DNA of 38,032 bases from an uncultured Eubacteriales bacterium (GTDB lineage: Bacteria > Bacillota > Clostridia > Oscillospirales > Ruminococcaceae): contig OMXI01000024.1 of the NCBI GenBank assembly GCA_900314975.1, positions 1-38,032 on the forward strand. Reading direction: 5' to 3'. A program made the position numbers and the translations under genes. Below are positions 19,511-29,429 of the stretch, in pieces; the first letter of the stretch is position 1; each line of letters begins with the position of its first letter. The notes under the pieces are model-generated. The model worked only from the letters and a program-made list of their open reading frames with translations. It did not search any database and was not told where the DNA came from.

Positions 19511-20332
19511 TTATTTATCAGAAAGTGAAGGCTCGTCAAACTCCCCCACAATTCTAAACTTATTATAGCGTTCATTTATCAATTCGTCAAGCCCTTTTTT
19601 CAATTTTCTTTCAAGAGCCTTGGAAATATACGAACTTATGTTGTTTGCGGTCAGCTGCGCGTCGTTATGCGCACCTCCCGGTGCCTCTTGTATGACAGCA
19701 TCGCACACGCCAAGCTTAACGAGGTCGCCCGCGGTTATCTTCATCAGATCGCACGCCTCGCGCTCTCTTGCGGCGTCTTTCCAAAGGATACTTGCAAAGC
19801 CTCGGGGTGAAATAACCGAGTACAGTGCATTTTCCAGCATAGCAAGCTCGTCGCACACTGCGAGTGCCAGCGCGCCGCCCGAGCCGCCCTCGCCCAGCAC
19901 GATAGAGATTATCGGGGTTTTGAGGGTCATAAACTCCATAAGGTTTTTGGCGATAGCCTCGCCTTGTCCTCTTTTTTCCGCATCTACTCCGCAGAACGCG
20001 CCTGCGGTATCGACAAGGCAGATAACCGGTCTGTGGAACTTTTCAGCCTGTTTTGCAAGGCGCAGAGCCTTTCTGTACCCCTCGGGGTGAGGCATACCGA
20101 AGTTGCATTTCTGGTTCTCGGCTAAATCCCTGCCCTTGACCTGTGCTATTACGGTGACGGGAGTGCCTTTGAAATAGGCAATTCCGCCCATTATTGCGCC
20201 GTCGTCGCCGAAAAGCCTGTCGCCGTGCATCTCCATAAACCTGTCAAAAATCATCGGGATATAGTCATTTACGGTAGGTCTGCCTTTATGCCTTATTATA
20301 TCAAGGCGCTGGCTCGCTGTAAGCTCGCTCAC
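19511..20332 (-). CDS. accA: Acetyl-CoA carboxylase carboxyltransferase subunit alpha
   Basis: 273 residues, a little shorter than the E. coli protein because of a reduced N-terminus. The crotonase-like core shows VDTAGAFCGVDAEKRGQGEAIA and LGEGGSGGALALA, the usual AccA blocks that bind acetyl-CoA and hold the oxyanion. With AccD it moves the carboxyl group from biotin to acetyl-CoA to make malonyl-CoA. The start overlaps the accD stop by 4 nt, as expected for two subunits made in equal amounts. Confidence 0.95.
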   Translation of the reverse strand: MSELTASQRLDIIRHKGRPTVNDYIPMIFDRFMEMHGDRLFGDDGAIMGGIAYFKGTPVTVIAQVKGRDLAENQKCNFGMPHPEGYRKALRLAKQAEKFHRPVICLVDTAGAFCGVDAEKRGQGEAIAKNLMEFMTLKTPIISIVLGEGGSGGALALAVCDELAMLENALYSVISPRGFASILWKDAAREREACDLMKITAGDLVKLGVCDAVIQEAPGGAHNDAQLTANNISSYISKALERKLKKGLDELINERYNKFRIVGEFDEPSLSDK

Positions 20333-21204
20333 TTTTTAGGCACCTCCCCCGTATAGTTATGCATTCTCAAGATATGCGAAAGCACTCTGCGCATTCGCGT
20401 TCTGTCGACTATCATATCGACAAAGCCGTTTTCGAGCATAAACTCTGCGGACTGGAAATCATCGGGGAGCTTTTGCTTGATAGTTCCCTCGATAACGCGT
20501 CTGCCCGCAAAGCCGATAAGCACCTTTGGCTCGGCGATAATGATGTCACCAAGTGATGCGAACGACGCAGTAACGCCGCCTGTGGTAGGGTCGGTCATAA
20601 CTGCGATATACAGCTGACCTGCCTCGTTATGTCTTGCGACTGCGCCGCTGGTTTTTGCCATCTGCATAAGCGAGACGATACCCTCCTGCATTCTCGCGCC
20701 GCCCGATGCGGTAAACGCGATAACGGGGAGTTTCTTTCTCGTTGCATACTCAAACGCTCTGGTTATCTTCTCGCCCACGACGCTTCCCATTGACGCCATC
20801 ATAAAGTTGGAATCCATAACGATTATGACGGTATCCTTGCCGTATATTTTCGCTCTGCCCGTAAGCACGGCATCTTTAAGACCTGTCTTTTCGCGCAGGG
20901 CTATCTGCTTTTGCTCGTAGCCGGGAAAATCTATGGGGTTTTTGGATATCATAGTTCGGTCGAACTCTCTGAAGCTGCCCTTATCGACAGTTATATCAAG
21001 TCTTTCCCTTGCGCTCAGGCGCGAATGGTAATTGCAGTTGGGGCAGACCTTGCCATTTTTGTTGAATTCCTCCGAAAGAGTGACGCTTCTGCATCTGGGG
21101 CATTTAAACAGCAATCCCTTGGGGATATCGGTCTTTTTCTTATCGTCCTCGGTCTGATCTGCATTGAACCTGACCTTGACCATTGAGAACAGATCCTCAA
21201 GCAT
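20329..21204 (-). CDS. accD: Acetyl-CoA carboxylase carboxyltransferase subunit beta
   Basis: 291 residues. An N-terminal zinc ribbon has Cys35, Cys38, Cys54 and Cys57 (CPRC and CPNC pairs), followed by the carboxyltransferase core with FTASGGARMQEG and DPTTGGVTASF. It forms the heterotetramer with AccA. The chosen ATG stands 9 nt after AGAGGAG and 6 nt after the accC stop. All zinc ligands are present and the length is normal. Confidence 0.95.
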   Translation of the reverse strand: MLEDLFSMVKVRFNADQTEDDKKKTDIPKGLLFKCPRCRSVTLSEEFNKNGKVCPNCNYHSRLSARERLDITVDKGSFREFDRTMISKNPIDFPGYEQKQIALREKTGLKDAVLTGRAKIYGKDTVIIVMDSNFMMASMGSVVGEKITRAFEYATRKKLPVIAFTASGGARMQEGIVSLMQMAKTSGAVARHNEAGQLYIAVMTDPTTGGVTASFASLGDIIIAEPKVLIGFAGRRVIEGTIKQKLPDDFQSAEFMLENGFVDMIVDRTRMRRVLSHILRMHNYTGEVPKK

Positions 21205-21210
21205 CAGCTA

Positions 21211-22575
21211 TTACTCCTCTCTTTGCTTTAGTATATCAACTCTGTTTAAAAATGCGTTATCGTAATTACCCTCTATAAACTCGGGTCGTCTTATCAGCTT
21301 TAGCTGGAAATCGACGTTGGTGTTCACGCCCTCGACGATGAACTCGCTCAGAGCCCAGGTCATTTTGGCGATTGCCTCCTGTCTGTCCTTACCGTGAACT
21401 ATCAGCTTGCCTATCATTGAATCGTAGTAGGGCGGTATTTCGTAGCCCTGGTAAACGGCGGTGTCGACTCTGACACCAAAGCCTCCCGGGATAAACAGTG
21501 AACGTATCGTTCCGGGTGAGGGACGGAAGCCCTGCTCGGGGTTCTCGGCATTTATGCGGCACTCTATCGCGTGACCTGTAATCTTCACGTCCTCCTGCTT
21601 TATGCTCAAATGCTCGCCCTGCGCGATAAGCAGCTGCTGCTTTACAAGGTCAATGCCTGTTACCTGCTCGGTTATCGGGTGCTCGACCTGTATTCTGGTA
21701 TTCATCTCCATAAAGTAGAAGTCGCCGTTTTTATCGACAAGGAACTCTATCGTACCTGCGTTGCGGTAGCCGCAAACTCTGGCTGCGGTGCAGGCTGCTT
21801 TGCCCATTTTTTCGCGAAGCCGGGGTGTCATGAAGCTTGCTGGAGACGGAGCCTCCTCAAGAACTTTCTGATTACGTCTTTGCATAGAGCAGTCGCGCTC
21901 GCCGAGGTAGATAACGTCGCCGTAGTTATCGGCAAGAATCTGTATCTCGATATGCTTTGGGTCGACGATGAACTTTTCCATATAGACCTCGTCGTTTCCG
22001 AAGCAGGCAAGAGCCTCCTGCCGTGCGGCAGTCATCTGCTTTTCAAGCTCGCTTTCCTCGTTGACAATGCGGATGCCGCGCCCTCCGCCGCCTGCGGAAG
22101 CCTTTATCAGCACGGGGTAGCCCAGCTGTGCGGCAAGCGATTTAGCCGCGTGGATATTTGAGATAGCGCCGTCAGAGCCCATAATTACGGGCACGCCGTT
22201 TTCTTTCATCGTTTCCTTTGCCTGTGCTTTATCGCCCAGCATCTCGATAGAGGTAGCGCGCGGTCCGATAAAGGTTATGCCGCACTTTTCGCAGGTGCGC
22301 GCAAAGGACGCGTTCTCGGACAAAAAGCCAAAGCCGGGGTGGATAGCATCTGCGCCCGTTATCTCACACGCGGAGATTATCGCACGCATATTGAGGTAGC
22401 TGTCCTTGCTCGGCGCAGGACCTATGCACACAGCCTCGTCGGCTATCATAGTGTGCAGGGCGTTCTTGTCGGCGGTCGAATAGACAGCGACAGTCTGAAT
22501 GCCAAGCTCACGGCAGGCACGGATTATTCTTACAGCTATTTCGCCGCGGTTGGCGATAAGGACTTTCTTGAACAT
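21211..22575 (-). CDS. accC: Biotin carboxylase
   Basis: 454 residues, the standard length. The ATP-grasp fold is visible: N-terminal KVLIANRGEIAVRIIRA, the Gly-rich loop GGGGRGIR (162-169) and the catalytic stretch EMNTRIQVEHPITE. It carboxylates biotin on AccB with ATP and bicarbonate, the first step toward malonyl-CoA. It follows fabZ by 30 nt. No missing residues were noticed. Confidence 0.97.
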   Translation of the reverse strand: MFKKVLIANRGEIAVRIIRACRELGIQTVAVYSTADKNALHTMIADEAVCIGPAPSKDSYLNMRAIISACEITGADAIHPGFGFLSENASFARTCEKCGITFIGPRATSIEMLGDKAQAKETMKENGVPVIMGSDGAISNIHAAKSLAAQLGYPVLIKASAGGGGRGIRIVNEESELEKQMTAARQEALACFGNDEVYMEKFIVDPKHIEIQILADNYGDVIYLGERDCSMQRRNQKVLEEAPSPASFMTPRLREKMGKAACTAARVCGYRNAGTIEFLVDKNGDFYFMEMNTRIQVEHPITEQVTGIDLVKQQLLIAQGEHLSIKQEDVKITGHAIECRINAENPEQGFRPSPGTIRSLFIPGGFGVRVDTAVYQGYEIPPYYDSMIGKLIVHGKDRQEAIAKMTWALSEFIVEGVNTNVDFQLKLIRRPEFIEGNYDNAFLNRVDILKQREE

Positions 22576-22605: not shown

Positions 22606-23037
22606 TTATTTTATTGCAAAGGTTATCTCCGCTGAAACTGCTTTCTTTCCGCCGACGGTAGCAACTGCTTTGCCGACGCCGATAGGTCCTTTGACTTTGA
22701 GTATCTCGACCTCTATCTCAAGAGTGTCGCCCGGCAGCACTTGCTGTCTGAACTTGCAGTTGTTTATGCCGCCGAAAAAGCCTATCTTTCCCTTGTTCTC
22801 CGGCAGCGAAAGAAGCGCTACTGCGCCTGCCTGTGCGCACATCTCGACCATAAGCACGCCCGGGGTCACGGGGTACTGCGGGAAATGTCCCTTGAACCAG
22901 AAATCGTCGGCTTTTATGTACTTTGTTGCCTTTACGCGCTTGCCCACCTCAAGCTCGTTTATCTCGTCTATCAGCAGAAACGGGTCGCGGTGTGGGATAA
23001 CTTCCATTATCTGCTCTTTATTCATCACTACTGCCAT
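22606..23037 (-). CDS. fabZ: 3-hydroxyacyl-ACP dehydratase FabZ
   Basis: 143 residues from the ATG at 23037, 7 nt after AAGGAG; longer in-frame starts up to 23223 run into the neighbouring gene and lack a site. The hot-dog fold motifs are HRDPFLLID (16-24) and GHFPQYPVTPGVLMVE, with catalytic His51 and Glu65. It dehydrates 3-hydroxyacyl-ACP in each elongation round. The start lies inside the end of the membrane-protein gene (20-nt overlap), so the two are translationally coupled. Confidence 0.95.
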   Translation of the reverse strand: MAVVMNKEQIMEVIPHRDPFLLIDEINELEVGKRVKATKYIKADDFWFKGHFPQYPVTPGVLMVEMCAQAGAVALLSLPENKGKIGFFGGINNCKFRQQVLPGDTLEIEVEILKVKGPIGVGKAVATVGGKKAVSAEITFAIK

Positions 23038-23527
23038 TTTCATTCTCCTTGGTCTGTGAGTCGTTACCGTCTTGTTCATCAGTTTTGCCGTCAGGCTTTT
23101 CTGCGGCTTTTTTAGGCTTTTTGAGCTTTTCCTGCTTGATATACTCCGTACAGCCTGCGAGCATAAATATACTGCAAAGCACTGCGGGTGCGAACTGCAT
23201 ATACCGCCACGGCTCAAACTCAAGCTTTATTATCCAGTAAAAGACTGCTGGGATATAAAACAGAGAATACACCATGCAAAGCAGGTACAGCGGTGTTATC
23301 TTTTTCACGCGCACAAGGAAAAACAGCCCTGTCAGCGCCGTTTCAATGCCCAGCGCTATCCAGCCCGAGACCTCGTAGTTACGGTAGCCGTCACGGAAGA
23401 TGACCATGAACGGTCCGAGCATCGAGAGTATCGACGACGGGCTTAAAAGCATTATCCATTTTATCAGCACGAACGCTGCCCACAGCATCAGGCAGGTCGC
23501 AAGCCTTTTTCTGACTTCGGTTTTCAT
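23018..23527 (-). CDS. Unknown four-helix membrane protein inside the fatty-acid operon
   Basis: 169 residues; I do not recognise the family. Four hydrophobic segments (about 8-29, 53-73, 78-100 and 109-127) precede a highly charged tail (128-169) rich in Lys, Glu, Asp and Asn. The start overlaps the accB stop by 1 nt (TAATG) and the end overlaps fabZ by 20 nt, so it is translated as part of the pathway. No known fatty-acid enzyme fits this size and shape. It could anchor or regulate the complex at the membrane, or be a passenger gene. Its codon use is like that of its neighbours. Confidence 0.75.
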   Translation of the reverse strand: MKTEVRKRLATCLMLWAAFVLIKWIMLLSPSSILSMLGPFMVIFRDGYRNYEVSGWIALGIETALTGLFFLVRVKKITPLYLLCMVYSLFYIPAVFYWIIKLEFEPWRYMQFAPAVLCSIFMLAGCTEYIKQEKLKKPKKAAEKPDGKTDEQDGNDSQTKENENGSSDE

Positions 23528-23991
23528 TATCCGATCACCATTACTGTCTGGTCAAAGTCAACGGGGTCGCCACTTTGAACAAGTATCTTCTTAACCTCTC
23601 CGTCAAATTCGCTCTGCACCTCGCTCATCACCTTCATAGACTCGATGATGAAGATTGTGTCGCCCTTTTTGACCTGTGAGCCGACCTTTACAAACGGCTC
23701 GGAGTCGGGTGACGGTGCGGCATAGAATGTGCCGACGATCGGCGCTTTGACCTCATTGCCCTCTGCCTTTTCCTCTGCCTTGGGTGCTTCGGGTGCGGCT
23801 GCCTGCATCTGCGGCATTGGCGGCATAGGCGGCACCTGTGGAAATGCGGGTGCGGGGGGTGCGCAATGCACTCTGCCCTTTACGGTTATCCTTTTATCGC
23901 CGTCTGTTACGGTTATTTCGCCCAAATCGTTTTTCTTTACAAGCTCTGCGAGCTTTTTTACGGTATCCAGATCGAATGACTTATCGCTCAT
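23527..23991 (-). CDS. accB: Biotin carboxyl carrier protein of acetyl-CoA carboxylase
   Basis: 154 residues. An N-terminal helix region (1-40), a Pro/Ala/Met/Glu-rich flexible linker (43-80) and the C-terminal biotinyl domain (81-154). The biotin site reads ESMKVM with Lys120; the usual form is EAMKM, so Ala is replaced by Ser, a known and tolerated variation. It shuttles carboxybiotin from AccC to AccA/AccD. The ATG follows AAAGGAG. Confidence 0.95.
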   Translation of the reverse strand: MSDKSFDLDTVKKLAELVKKNDLGEITVTDGDKRITVKGRVHCAPPAPAFPQVPPMPPMPQMQAAAPEAPKAEEKAEGNEVKAPIVGTFYAAPSPDSEPFVKVGSQVKKGDTIFIIESMKVMSEVQSEFDGEVKKILVQSGDPVDFDQTVMVIG

Positions 23992-24024: not shown

Positions 24025-25269
24025 TCAGCCCTCGTATTTCTTTATGCAGATAGTTGCGTTGTGTCCGCCAAAGCCGAGGGAGTTGGACAGCGCGCCTTTG
24101 ATATCGACATTTCTGTTGCCGTCTGTTGCGTAGTCGAGGTCGCACTCGGGGTCGGGAGTGGTATAGCCGACAGTTCTGTGAACAAAGCCCTCCTTGACGG
24201 AAAGTGCTGTTACAACGGCTTCCATACCGCCTGCTGCGCCCAGCAGGTGTCCTGTCATAGACTTGGTGGAGTTGATGACTGTCTTTCTTGCAGCCTCCTC
24301 GCCAAGTGCGAGCTTGATAGCGATAGTTTCGTACTTATCGTTAAGACCTGTGGACGTGCCGTGTGCGTTGATATAGTTTATCTCCTCGGGCTTTAAGCCT
24401 GCCTCGGTGTACGCCATTTTCATAGCGTGTGCGGCAGCCTCGCCTGTCGGTGAAGGGCTGGTCATATGGTAAGCATCGCCCGTTGCGCCGTAGCCTGCTA
24501 TCTCGGCAATGATGTTCGCGCCCCTTGCCTTTGCGTGCTCATACTCCTCAAGGCAGAGTATTCCGCAGCCCTCGCCCAGAACAAAGCCCTGTCTGTTGAG
24601 GTCAAACGGAGTTGATGCTTTTTCAAGCTCGGTGGCTCTTGAAAGAGCCTTCATATTGTTGAACGAGGACAGGCAGAAGCGTGAGATACAAGCCTCCGTA
24701 CCGCCGCAGATAGCTGCGTCGAGGTAGCCGTCCTTTATCTTTCTGAAAGCCTCGCCGATAGCGTGAGTACCTGACGAGCAAGCGGTGGTGGTACAGAAGT
24801 TGTCGCCCTTGAAGCCTGTTTTCATAGAAACAGTACCCGCTGCCATATTTGCTATCATCATAGGAATGAAGAAAACGGACACCTTATCGGGCTTTACCTC
24901 AAACTTTCTTACCTCTTCCTCTGTAAGCAGCAGTCCGCCTATGCCGACGCCGATCATAACGCCGACTCTGTACGGGTCAAGGTCCTTGAGGTCGCTGCCT
25001 GCCATTTTAAGAGCCTGCTTTGTGGAGGCAAGTGCGAACTGGGTAAAGCGGTCCATTTTCTTGAGTTCTTTTTTCTCGACATCGGGTATCTGTGCGGGCG
25101 CGTCAAAGCCTCTGACGGTGCCTGCGAATTTAACGTCAAAATCAGAGGTATCGAACTGGTCTATCGCGGAAATGCCTATTTTATTTGCCTTGATATTTGC
25201 CCAGAACTCCTCGGTATTATTGCCAAGCGGATTTACTGTGCCAACACCTGTTATCACAACTCTTCTCAT
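24025..25269 (-). CDS. fabF: 3-oxoacyl-ACP synthase II (FabF)
   Basis: 414 residues, standard length. The thiolase-fold condensing enzyme has the full Cys-His-His triad: Cys164 in TTACSSGTHA, His303 in NAHGTSTGLND and His341 in KSMTGHLLGAAGG. It elongates acyl-ACP with malonyl-ACP. It follows fabG closely in the operon. Because fabH next to the promoter is broken, this is the only intact condensing enzyme in the window. Confidence 0.97.
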   Translation of the reverse strand: MRRVVITGVGTVNPLGNNTEEFWANIKANKIGISAIDQFDTSDFDVKFAGTVRGFDAPAQIPDVEKKELKKMDRFTQFALASTKQALKMAGSDLKDLDPYRVGVMIGVGIGGLLLTEEEVRKFEVKPDKVSVFFIPMMIANMAAGTVSMKTGFKGDNFCTTTACSSGTHAIGEAFRKIKDGYLDAAICGGTEACISRFCLSSFNNMKALSRATELEKASTPFDLNRQGFVLGEGCGILCLEEYEHAKARGANIIAEIAGYGATGDAYHMTSPSPTGEAAAHAMKMAYTEAGLKPEEINYINAHGTSTGLNDKYETIAIKLALGEEAARKTVINSTKSMTGHLLGAAGGMEAVVTALSVKEGFVHRTVGYTTPDPECDLDYATDGNRNVDIKGALSNSLGFGGHNATICIKKYEG

Positions 25270-25288: not shown

Positions 25289-26023
25289 TCACATCATTAT
25301 GCCGCCGGATATCTCTATTACCTGTCCGGTGACGTATCTTGAATCCTGCGATGCAAGGAAGGAAATAACTCCCGCTATATCCGATACCTCGCCAAAGCGC
25401 TTCATAGCTATCTGTCCCAGCATCATATTCTTCTGCTCGTCTGTGAGCTTATCGGTCATAGGTGTTTTGATAAAGCCGGGTGCTACTGCGTTGCAGGTGA
25501 TTCCCCTTGAGCCAAGCTCCTTGGCAACAGTCTTTGTCATTGCGATTATCGCGCCCTTTGAAGCCGAATAGTTTATCTGTCCCGGGTTGCCGTAAACGCC
25601 CGCTACCGATGCAAGATTGATTATCCTGCCCGACTTTTGTCTCATCATTATATTGCCGACAAATTTGCACAAATTGAAAACGCTCTTTTGGTTGACTGCG
25701 ATAACGCTGTCATACTGCTCCTCGCTCATTCTCGCCATAAGACCGTCGCGGGTGATGCCTGCGTTGTTTACGAGAACGTCGATAGAGCCAAAGCGCTCCT
25801 TTATCTGCTTTACTGTTTTCTCCACCTGCTCAAAGCTTGAAACGTCACAGATGAACTTTTCGCACTCTACGCCGAGTGCCTTTATATCGTCGATTATAGT
25901 ATTGTTTTCAAACATTGCCTCGCTGATGTCATTCAGTGCGATATTATAGCCGTCCTTTGCGAGCCTTAAAGCGACTGCTGCACCTATACCCCTTGCAGAT
26001 CCTGTTATCAGTGCTGTTGCCAT
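25289..26023 (-). CDS. fabG: 3-oxoacyl-ACP reductase FabG
   Basis: 244 residues, a classical short-chain dehydrogenase. The NADPH-binding TGSARGIG (7-14), the NNAG motif (86-89) and the catalytic Ser139, Tyr152 and Lys156 (NYSASKGA) are all present. It reduces 3-oxoacyl-ACP in each cycle. The gap to fabK upstream is 111 nt and holds a heptad repeat; no terminator is seen there, so transcription probably continues. The ATG follows GGGAGGA. Confidence 0.96.
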   Translation of the reverse strand: MATALITGSARGIGAAVALRLAKDGYNIALNDISEAMFENNTIIDDIKALGVECEKFICDVSSFEQVEKTVKQIKERFGSIDVLVNNAGITRDGLMARMSEEQYDSVIAVNQKSVFNLCKFVGNIMMRQKSGRIINLASVAGVYGNPGQINYSASKGAIIAMTKTVAKELGSRGITCNAVAPGFIKTPMTDKLTDEQKNMMLGQIAMKRFGEVSDIAGVISFLASQDSRYVTGQVIEISGGIMM

Positions 26024-26134: not shown

Positions 26135-27061
26135 TTATTTTCCAAGCAGCTTATCTGCCTGTGCAAACATTTCTGTGATTATATCCTTTGCGGGTTTAAC
26201 GTCCTTTATCATACCTGCTATCGCGCCGCAAAGGAACGAGCCTTCTTCAAGGTTGCCGTCCTGAACTGCCTTGCGCAGTGAGCCGAGCGTGAGCTGCTCG
26301 AATTCGTCGGGAGTAAGACTGCCGTCTCTTTCGCCCGATGCAAGCTTTTTTGTGAACTTTGTTCTCACGTTTCTGCACGGGTGACCTGTATATCTGCCCG
26401 TAACAACGCTGTCGGTATCCTTTGCCTTAACGACAAGCTCCTTGTATGTCGGGTGTATCTGACATTCCTCGGCAGCTAAAAACCTTGTGCCGACCTGTAC
26501 GCCCTGCGCGCCGAGCATAAACGATGCTGCGACACCTCTGCCGTCTGCGATACCGCCTGCTGCGATAACGGGGATATTCACCGCATCGACCACCTGCGGA
26601 ACGAGGCACATTGTGGTGTTCTCGCCGATATGTCCGCCCGACTCGGTACCCTCTGCGATAACTGCGTCAGCGCCTGCTCTTTCCATTCTTACAGCAAGAG
26701 CAACGGACGGAACAACGGGAACGACCTTAACACCCGCTTCCTTCCACGCAGCCATGAACTTACCCGGGTTGCCTGCGCCTGTGGTAACGACGGGTACCTT
26801 CTCGTCGATAACAAGCTGTGCAAGCTCCTCGGCATTAGGCGACATAAGCATTATGTTCACGCCGAACGGCTTGTCCGTCAGCGATTTGCAGCGCCTTATC
26901 TGCTCACGCAGATAGTCTATCGGTGCAGAGCCGCCTGCGATTATTCCAAGACCGCCTGCGTTTGAAACTGCTGCTGCGAGGGTGGACTCGGCTATCCAAG
27001 CCATACCGCCCTGAAAGATAGGATACTGTATTCCAAGAAGTTCTGTTATAGCACTTTTCAT
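26135..27061 (-). CDS. fabK: Enoyl-ACP reductase II (FabK), FMN-dependent
   Basis: 308 residues, a TIM-barrel flavoprotein of the nitronate monooxygenase/FabK group. The N-terminal YPIFQGGMAWIA, the central GTESGGHIG (His144) and the FMN-phosphate region AAGGIADGRG are the usual FabK signatures. It carries out the last reduction of the elongation cycle with NAD(P)H and FMN, in place of FabI, as is common in clostridia; no fabI is present here. Its position in the fab operon separates it from true nitronate monooxygenases. Confidence 0.93.
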   Translation of the reverse strand: MKSAITELLGIQYPIFQGGMAWIAESTLAAAVSNAGGLGIIAGGSAPIDYLREQIRRCKSLTDKPFGVNIMLMSPNAEELAQLVIDEKVPVVTTGAGNPGKFMAAWKEAGVKVVPVVPSVALAVRMERAGADAVIAEGTESGGHIGENTTMCLVPQVVDAVNIPVIAAGGIADGRGVAASFMLGAQGVQVGTRFLAAEECQIHPTYKELVVKAKDTDSVVTGRYTGHPCRNVRTKFTKKLASGERDGSLTPDEFEQLTLGSLRKAVQDGNLEEGSFLCGAIAGMIKDVKPAKDIITEMFAQADKLLGK

Positions 27062-27072
27062 TGTCTTTCTCC

Positions 27073-28051
27073 TTAATACTCAAAAATCACCGCGCCGTAG
27101 GTGAGTCCGCCGCCGAAGCCGACAAAGCAGACCATATCGCCCTTGCATATCCTGCCTTCCTTTACTGCCTCGCAGAATGCGATAGGTATTGATGCAGACG
27201 AGGTATTGCCGTAGCGGTCGATATACATCGGGAACTTGTGCATGGGAACGCTGAGGTTCTTTGCAGCGGTCTCGATAATTCTGATATTTGCCTGGTGCGG
27301 AACGATAGCGTCAAGCTCATCGGGCTGCATTTCAAGCTTTTCGCAAGCCTTTGTCACAGCTTCGGGCAGCGCCCTTGTTGCGAACTTATACACCTCTTTG
27401 CCGTTCTGGTACAGATAGTGCGCCTTGGTATTGGGCATATCCATATCAAACTCTTCCTCGTTGATACGGAAAGCATTCTCTGACTTCAAGCCTCTTGCTG
27501 CGAGGTACTGTGCGCCGTTTCCGTCTGCGCCGAGGAAACTGGAGTAGAACGTCGCCGTCACCGAACAGCACGCAGGTCGTTCTGTCGGTGTAGTCAACAA
27601 ACTTTGAAAGTTCCTCCGCTGCGACAAGCAGAACGTACTTTAAGCTGTGGTCGGTCTGCAAATATCTCTTTGCCATATCAAAGCCGTACACAAAGCCTGC
27701 GCACGCACAGTTGATGTCGATAGCCATTGAACCTATCGCGCCTATCTCCCTTTGGATAAGGCAGGCAAGCGACGGGGTGTAGTAGTCGGCAGTGACGGTC
27801 GTTGCGATTATCAAGCCTACGTCTTCAGCCTTTATGCCTGCATCGTCGAGAGCCTTCTGCGCAGCCTTTGCGCCGAGGTAATATGTAGGCTCGCCGTTTG
27901 TGATGTGTCTTTCCTTGATACCTGTTCTTTGTGTTATCCACTCGTCACTTGTTTCAACTATCTTTGCAAAGTCATCATTCGTTGCGATTATCTGCGGCAC
28001 GTGCATACCTATGCCAGCCACTCTCACGCCTGTTGTTCTGTTTTCAGTCAA
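27073..28051 (-). pseudogene. fabH: fabH, 3-oxoacyl-ACP synthase III, broken by an out-of-frame deletion
   Basis: The gene starts at a TTG (28051), about 10 nt after GGAGGT. The first 167 codons are normal FabH: DINCACAGF with Cys117, and DRTTCVLFGDG. At about 27551 the frame changes, and FabH sequence continues in another frame from LGADGNG to the end, including PHQANIRI (His) and YGNTSSASIP (Asn). Between GDG and LGADG only about 6 codons remain where family members have 18-19, so about 12 codons and 3n+2 bases (for example 35 or 38) are missing. The normal Gly/Ala loop after GDG is lost. The intact protein would be about 338 residues and would start chains from acetyl-CoA and malonyl-ACP. 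It is either a true mutation or an assembly or sequencing error. Confidence 0.88.
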
Positions 28052-28143: not shown

Positions 28144-28187
28144 CGGCGGTGTCCTTTCGGGCTTTCGGCGGTGTCCTTTCGGGCTTT
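28144..28187. repeat. Two tandem 22-bp repeats in the fabH leader
   Basis: The unit CGGCGGTGTCCTTTCGGGC plus TTT occurs twice in perfect tandem (28144-28165 and 28166-28187). It lies in the untranslated leader of the fatty-acid operon, about 95-140 nt before the fabH start. Confidence 0.85.
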
Positions 28188-28292: not shown

Positions 28293-28321
28293 ATTATACT
28301 CCCTTTCGGATTTTCAATCAA
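28293..28321 (-). promoter_or_regulatory. Promoter of the fatty-acid operon
   Basis: TTGATT (28316-28321), a 17-nt spacer and TATAAT (28293-28298) on the minus strand. The leader is about 235 nt long. The 450-bp gap between fabH and fabD otherwise holds the repeats listed separately and the fabD promoter. Confidence 0.78.
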
Positions 28322-28450: not shown

Positions 28451-28479
28451 TTTCATTCCGCAGGTGCGGCTGATATATT
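28451..28479 (+). promoter_or_regulatory. Possible promoter of fabD with internal palindrome
   Basis: TTTCAT (28451-28456), 17 nt, then TATATT (28474-28479). The spacer contains the palindrome CCGCAGGTGCGG (28458-28469), which could be an operator. The -35 match is weak. Confidence 0.4.
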
Positions 28480-28502
28480 TATTAAATGTAAGGAGAATTT
28501 TT

Positions 28503-29429
28503 ATGGCAAAAAATGTGTTGTTGTTTTCGGGACAGGGCTCGCAGTATGTGGGCATGGGCAAGGAGCTTTATGACAGCTCGGACAGCGCAAGGGCTGTTGC
28601 AAAAACCGCCTGTGAGGTGCTTGGGTACGACATCTGCGGCATTATGTTCGACGGTCCCGATGAGGAGCTGAACAAGACCGCTAACTCACAGCCTGCGATA
28701 ATGCTTTGCTCGCTTATGGCGCTTGAATGTGCAAAGGAAAAGGGCTTGCACTTTGACGGCGTGGCAGGTCACTCGCTGGGCGAATACGCGGCTATGGTCG
28801 CATCGGGCGTGGTAAGTGTACAGGACGGCTTTGCGCTTATCAAGGCAAGGGCTGCGGCTATGCAGAAGGCTGCTGACGACAACGACGGCGCTATGTACGC
28901 GATAATAGGACCGACACCGCAGGAGATAGAGAGCGCGTGCGAAAAGACCGAAGGGTATGTTGTGCCTGTAAACTACAACTCCCCTGTTCAGACGGTAATT
29001 GCAGGCGAAAGCACTGCGGCAGAGGCTGCGGGCAAGCTGATAAGCGAGACAAGCAGCGCAAAGCGCGTCAAGGTCGTTAAGCTCAACGTTTCCAGCGCGT
29101 TCCACTCAAAGCTGATGCAGTCGGCGGCAGACGAGCTTTTGGAATTTGCGAAGGGTATCACGTTCAAGCCCGCTGACAAGGAGTTTTACTCAAATGTTCT
29201 CGGCGAAAAGCTGACCGATTTTTCGGAAATGCCGCAGCTGCTTGCAAAGCACATTGTTTCGCCCGTTAAGTTCACAAACGAGCTGGCGGCGATGCAGGCT
29301 GCGGGCTACACCGATTACATAGAGCTGGGACCGGGCAAGGTGCTGACGGGGCTTGTAAAGAAAACGCTTGACGGCGTGAGGGCTGTCAATATCGAAAATG
29401 CCGACACGCTGGAAAAAGCGTTTGGTTAA
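28503..29429 (+). CDS. fabD: Malonyl-CoA:ACP transacylase FabD
   Basis: 308 residues from the ATG at 28503, after AAGGAGA; an upstream start at 28464 has no ribosome site. The family motifs are FSGQGSQ (8-14), the nucleophile elbow GHSLGEYAA with Ser91, and AFHSKLM with His201. It loads malonyl groups onto acyl carrier protein. In many clostridia fabD sits inside the fab operon; here it has moved to the opposite strand and is divergent from the rest, so the two halves of the pathway share one intergenic control region. Confidence 0.96.
   Translation: MAKNVLLFSGQGSQYVGMGKELYDSSDSARAVAKTACEVLGYDICGIMFDGPDEELNKTANSQPAIMLCSLMALECAKEKGLHFDGVAGHSLGEYAAMVASGVVSVQDGFALIKARAAAMQKAADDNDGAMYAIIGPTPQEIESACEKTEGYVVPVNYNSPVQTVIAGESTAAEAAGKLISETSSAKRVKVVKLNVSSAFHSKLMQSAADELLEFAKGITFKPADKEFYSNVLGEKLTDFSEMPQLLAKHIVSPVKFTNELAAMQAAGYTDYIELGPGKVLTGLVKKTLDGVRAVNIENADTLEKAFG

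Follow-up and report, generated by a model that had tools for sequence, protein, structure and literature searches.

An out-of-frame fabH in an uncultured Eubacteriales assembly probably reflects an imprecise contig join

The fabH gene of an uncultured Eubacteriales bacterium is presented, on the contig analysed here, as two halves in two reading frames, with 32 bases missing between them. The whole of this contig (38,032 bases; hereafter the window) belongs to a 2.92 Mb Ruminococcus assembly of 91 contigs rated 98.48% complete. Judged from sequence comparisons, the gene is very likely intact in the cell, the assembled copy having lost the 32 bases where two contig ends were imprecisely joined. 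We regard the break as most likely an assembly error, not biology, because lesions of a like sort, each a single short gap or duplication, are seen in other conserved genes of this assembly: seven of 163 sampled gene places, including fabH, proA and pyrK, are broken alike. The fabH gene itself shows no sign of relaxed selection.

The broken gene covers positions 27073-28051 of the minus strand. The TIGR00747 model matched it in two pieces lying in different frames, one at 27551-28027 (model positions 3-161, E 1.5e-55, 188.7 bits) and the other at 27082-27528 (model positions 182-320, E 9.7e-37, 127 bits); nowhere in the source genome was the model cut-off of 292.1 bits reached in one frame. 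The N-terminal half (27553-28051, minus strand) carries the Cys motif NCACAGF, and the C-terminal half (27073-27552, minus strand) carries the His motif VPHQAN and the Asn motif YGNTSSAS, together with the KAS III C-terminal domain PF08541 (E 1.2e-34); the three motifs are those which we take to hold the catalytic residues. The start is probably the TTG at 28051, read by eye behind a GGAGG, and it fits the gene limits given in the initial annotation of this DNA. A MAFFT alignment placed a single 32-base gap, to within a few bases, at the junction 27552/27553 (minus strand), and the missing bases are present in all 12 relative loci aligned. In pairwise alignments the gap was again of 32 bases with each of the three nearest relatives, one of them shifting it by a few bases. 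The distance between GDG and LGADG is 17 codons in the nearest relative (L034) versus 19 bases in the window; about eleven codons from a stretch conserved in relatives are gone. The N-terminal half is 96% identical to that of L034 over 166 aa, and no second lesion was seen in the gene. What the initial annotation had read from the letters, namely two good FabH halves out of frame with each other, the active-site Cys, His and Asn kept, and about 6 codons left between GDG and LGADG, is borne out by these results. Its view that a loss of 3n+2 bases is needed also stands, but its sizes of 35 or 38 bases must be replaced by 32.

Collapse of a repeat at the junction was considered and rejected: only short repeats lie nearby, the nearest being a 10-base near-repeat with one mismatch that ends at the junction and that we take for chance. 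Elsewhere in the region, a perfect 22-base tandem repeat occupies 28144-28187, in the space separating fabH from fabD, and its core recurs as a third, partial copy at 28302; a 15-base core of the repeat was met in three of 175 loci, all three of them copies of the window.

The genes around fabH are those of a fatty-acid operon and, as the initial annotation had supposed, they are otherwise intact. The minus-strand run reads fabH-fabK-fabG-fabF-accB-(small protein)-fabZ-accC-accD-accA, with fabD divergent and upstream, and this order is kept in the compared relatives as far as their stretches extend. The nine named neighbours are each a single open frame, matched in one frame and over nearly the full length by the relatives. 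Downstream of fabH on the same strand, the fabK-type enoyl-ACP reductase gene (26135-27061; a name that we assigned to a member of the PF03060 nitronate monooxygenase family) is 94-98% identical to its counterparts in the six nearest relatives. It is followed by fabG (25289-26023; named from sequence and operon context; 96-98% to the five nearest relatives and 93% to the sixth) and by fabF (24025-25269; TIGR03150, 553.7 bits), the only gene of the genome that the fabF model matches. Then come, all named from sequence and all on the minus strand, accB (23527-23991; one-frame match to relatives), fabZ (22606-23022; 98-100% over 138 aa to the five nearest relatives) and the accC, accD and accA genes (19511-22575; 92-97% to the four nearest relatives, in one frame each). 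On the plus strand, fabD (28464-29429; likewise named from sequence) is 82-88% identical to the genes of the six nearest relatives, in each of which it lies opposite to the fabH strand.

Among the relatives, fabH is continuous. The closest matches that bear a name include the Ruminococcus metagenome assemblies RUG13311 and RUG13226, with about 80% nucleotide identity over fabH. When the source genome and 60 relatives were searched with TIGR00747, 44 of the 61 genomes gave a match and 42 gave one above the cut-off, the source genome not being among the latter. Within the genus, 27 of 28 genomes carry a single fabH that exceeds the cut-off and runs through one frame with no stops (the copy of G017 runs off a contig end), and the sole exception is a 70% complete assembly. 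The break is thus private to the source assembly among the 61 genomes searched. A second fabH, which the initial annotation had offered as a way out, did not turn up: in the source assembly, rated 98.48% complete, TIGR00747 and PF08541 found only the pieces of the window gene.

Both halves of fabH are, as far as substitution ratios can tell, under strong purifying selection, like the intact genes of relatives. Against L034, Ka/Ks was 0.014 for the N-terminal and 0.059 for the C-terminal half; the corresponding values between intact genes were 0.036 and 0.054 (L034 versus G009) and 0.025 and 0.060 (G009 versus G010), all of them rough since Ks is near saturation. An unconstrained gene would gather many more replacements, and the break must therefore be either very young or not real; the absence of relaxed selection is also the picture expected from a very recent true deletion.

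To see how the rest of the assembly compares, we took 60 stretches of the source genome together with the window (802 kb in 61 sequences, among them a few short masked contigs) and set them against ORFs drawn from 1.33 Mb of relatives, of which 1.23 Mb come from a single genome, G008, and the rest from short stretches of six others. With strict settings (ORF length 120 aa or more, E no higher than 1e-10, identity 60% or above), seven of the 163 source gene places with a usable homologue (95% interval 1.7-8.6%) were split over two frames, each by one short out-of-frame insertion or deletion. The reverse run flagged one of 167, an ORF without Pfam match; Fisher's test gave p 0.035 for 7/163 versus 1/167, and p 0.007 when this single reverse ORF was dropped, a contrast that hinges on the ORF filter used. 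With a smaller sample, eight of 124 relative queries were split (six being fabH; one in a single frame), and in reverse none of 61; another run gave 4/117 forward and 0/116 in reverse. When the settings were relaxed (80-aa limit for ORFs, E no higher than 1e-6), the two directions came out at 7/179, fabH being perhaps counted twice, and 7/191. The eight reverse queries of that looser run were 82-168 aa long, three of them in one stretch (L109). No Pfam match was found for any of the nine reverse-flagged ORFs (eight looser, one strict), which look like antisense or non-coding ORFs; all seven forward broken genes match a named family.

Besides fabH (window 27552/27553, -32 by alignment with relatives), pairwise alignments gave lesions of -62 in a xanthine/uracil-family permease gene, -13 in proA, -83 in the gene of a DUF2229 CoA-enzyme-activase-domain protein and -53 in that of a transglutaminase-like protein. 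DNA alignments gave a net -4 in a gerA-family germination gene and +16, in the form of a near tandem copy, in pyrK (a name that comes from matches below the NCBIfam curated cut-offs). The six further break points lie at about 5133 of L152, 10640 of L085, 2685 of L084, 4955 of L164, 8687 of L077 and 1225 of L046. No second lesion was found in the seven genes: the matched stretches hold one stop in gerA, just past the frame change, and one in the transglutaminase-like gene, before its start, and the matched halves are otherwise free of stops where they are coding. By sequence divergence, the broken genes as a group are no further from G008 than the unbroken ones (Ka, Mann-Whitney p 0.77, seven broken of 153 places; median protein identity 84% for the broken and 86% for the unbroken). 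Beyond a remote 38.6-bit match, no other proA copy was found in the genome; for pyrK, an intact relative, 35% identical, lies on another contig and may or may not replace it.

The unbroken genes were also scanned for in-frame stops, and five were flagged: in three the stops lie near alignment ends, and one query, antisense-looking on reading, accounts for two stops. The fifth, at L087 6297-8006, shares 66% identity with its homologue in G008 and has a single in-frame stop, which lies well away from the ends of the alignment. In-frame losses of at least four codons in conserved context were not seen in the strict sample; with about a third of lesions expected in frame for random sizes, finding none beside seven out-of-frame ones has, by our own arithmetic, a chance of about 0.06. 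Three runs of N were found inside source contigs (L060 9883, 24 bases; L154 3419, 8 bases; L158 1484, 10 bases) and none in the 1.33 Mb of relatives, which suggests a scaffolded assembly; the relatives gave no informative homologue with which these runs could serve as rulers of join errors. A further observation concerns perfect repeats resembling tandem duplications (period 13-60), of which the source sample has 18 rows (22 per Mb) and the relatives 12 (9 per Mb), in 61 and 69 sequences respectively; the rows are not independent, several coming from one array.

These results are best accommodated if contig ends were joined, during gap closing or scaffolding, with a wrong base count. In such a scaffolded assembly some joins would have been left as N and others closed with too many or too few bases, and imprecise joins of this kind could account for all seven lesions as well as for the short N runs. 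The excess of frame-split genes over the reverse run, the conservation on both sides of the fabH gap, the N runs and the single proA all argue for an assembly error; of the options left by the initial annotation, a wrong sequence at this place is the best supported. On the other side, pyrK has a relative on another contig, so that the cell might survive its loss; no long repeat that an assembler could have collapsed lies at the fabH junction; most of the comparison depends on a single genome (G008); and the absence of in-frame losses is awkward, although it counts against true random deletions too.

A true and very recent deletion, whether in this strain or in a fraction of the population sampled, is unlikely. 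It would call for chain initiation by FabF through decarboxylation of malonyl-ACP, or for fatty-acid uptake of the FakA type. A YloV/FakA-type gene is present (618.5 bits), with presumably the role of FakA in the uptake route, and three genomes of the same order, 98-100% complete, have FabF and no detectable FabH. It is also in its favour that some fatty-acid synthesis persists in Enterococcus faecalis and Lactococcus lactis that are FabH-null, though both need fatty acids (PMC13372179). Such a deletion leaves the six other broken genes without explanation, and neither half of fabH has decayed. MadB is missing, PF09500 (YiiD_C) having no match in the source genome and matching in the E. coli control, and FabF is not accelerated, with a Ka of 0.060 to the nearest relative versus 0.063 between two intact relatives. 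A compensating change in FabF was looked for and rejected: the protein is 90-91% identical to those of five relatives, shows no excess Ka and has invariant active-site columns, Cys164, His303 and His341, which we assume to be the active-site residues, being the same in six of six sequences. FabF does differ locally near residues 57-66, where it has three extra residues. The bypass raised by the initial annotation thus keeps the FakA-type gene on its side but neither MadB nor an altered FabF; it is possible in the source organism, with little positive support. That a living Ruminococcus strain has just lost fabH and starts its chains by FabF alone, as the three FabH-less genomes may do, is more doubtful still. 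In those genomes (G042, G045 and G054) FabF scores above the cut-off, and neither TIGR00747 (at E 0.001) nor PF08541 has a match; from their gene content they are candidates for a natural FASII without FabH, and a better place to look for one than the window.

Two other readings take the sequence at face value. The lineage could be undergoing a burst of small out-of-frame insertions and deletions, for instance by error-prone end joining, with fabH as one victim. Seven single-lesion genes among 163 would agree with this, as would the nature of the lesions: most are deletions (4-83 bases) whose junctions show little homology or none, and one is a tandem duplication. But Ku protein was not found in the source genome by a search that, among 14 controls, matches only Bacillus subtilis, and a fresh loss of fabH and proA together with damage to pyrK, all without decay, is hard to square with growth; we consider such a burst very improbable. 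Alternatively, FabH might function as two separate polypeptides, or ribosomes might shift frame at the join. Both halves are open frames, and the break presumably falls close to where the N-terminal half of the fold meets the C-terminal half. We reject a split gene or a programmed frameshift, which has next to no chance of being right, because about eleven codons are gone, which no change of frame restores, and because fabH is continuous in the relatives, in 27 of 28 genomes of the genus and in 12 of 12 aligned loci.

With an assembly error as the preferred reading, it is unsafe to claim gene losses on the strength of this assembly. Provided that the sample is typical, the genes that look broken genome-wide would number between some tens and a couple of hundred (an extrapolation that assumes about 2,500 genes). 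Should the loss of fabH be true after all, it would be a natural test of FabH-independent initiation of fatty-acid synthesis in a Gram-positive gut bacterium.

Three known systems bear on these alternatives. E. coli lacking fabH survives via yiiD, MadB/YiiD providing a FabH-independent chain start (PMC8666670), whereas the source genome is without a YiiD_C domain. The FabH-null strains of E. faecalis and L. lactis described in PMC13372179 are fatty-acid auxotrophs with residual synthesis, and resemble the present case in having FASII without a working FabH and still some fatty acids; they differ from it in being laboratory deletions that need fatty acids, and in the source genome no compensating change was found. 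The closest parallel to the preferred reading is given by Cooley and Wright (2024), according to whom assembly errors give rise to many putative pseudogenes, an inflated count of which is the mark of a poor assembly (PMC11017572). The likeness lies in genes that only seem interrupted; the difference is that their account deals with frameshifts and internal stops in general, whereas the lesions of the source assembly are mostly gaps of 4-83 bases.
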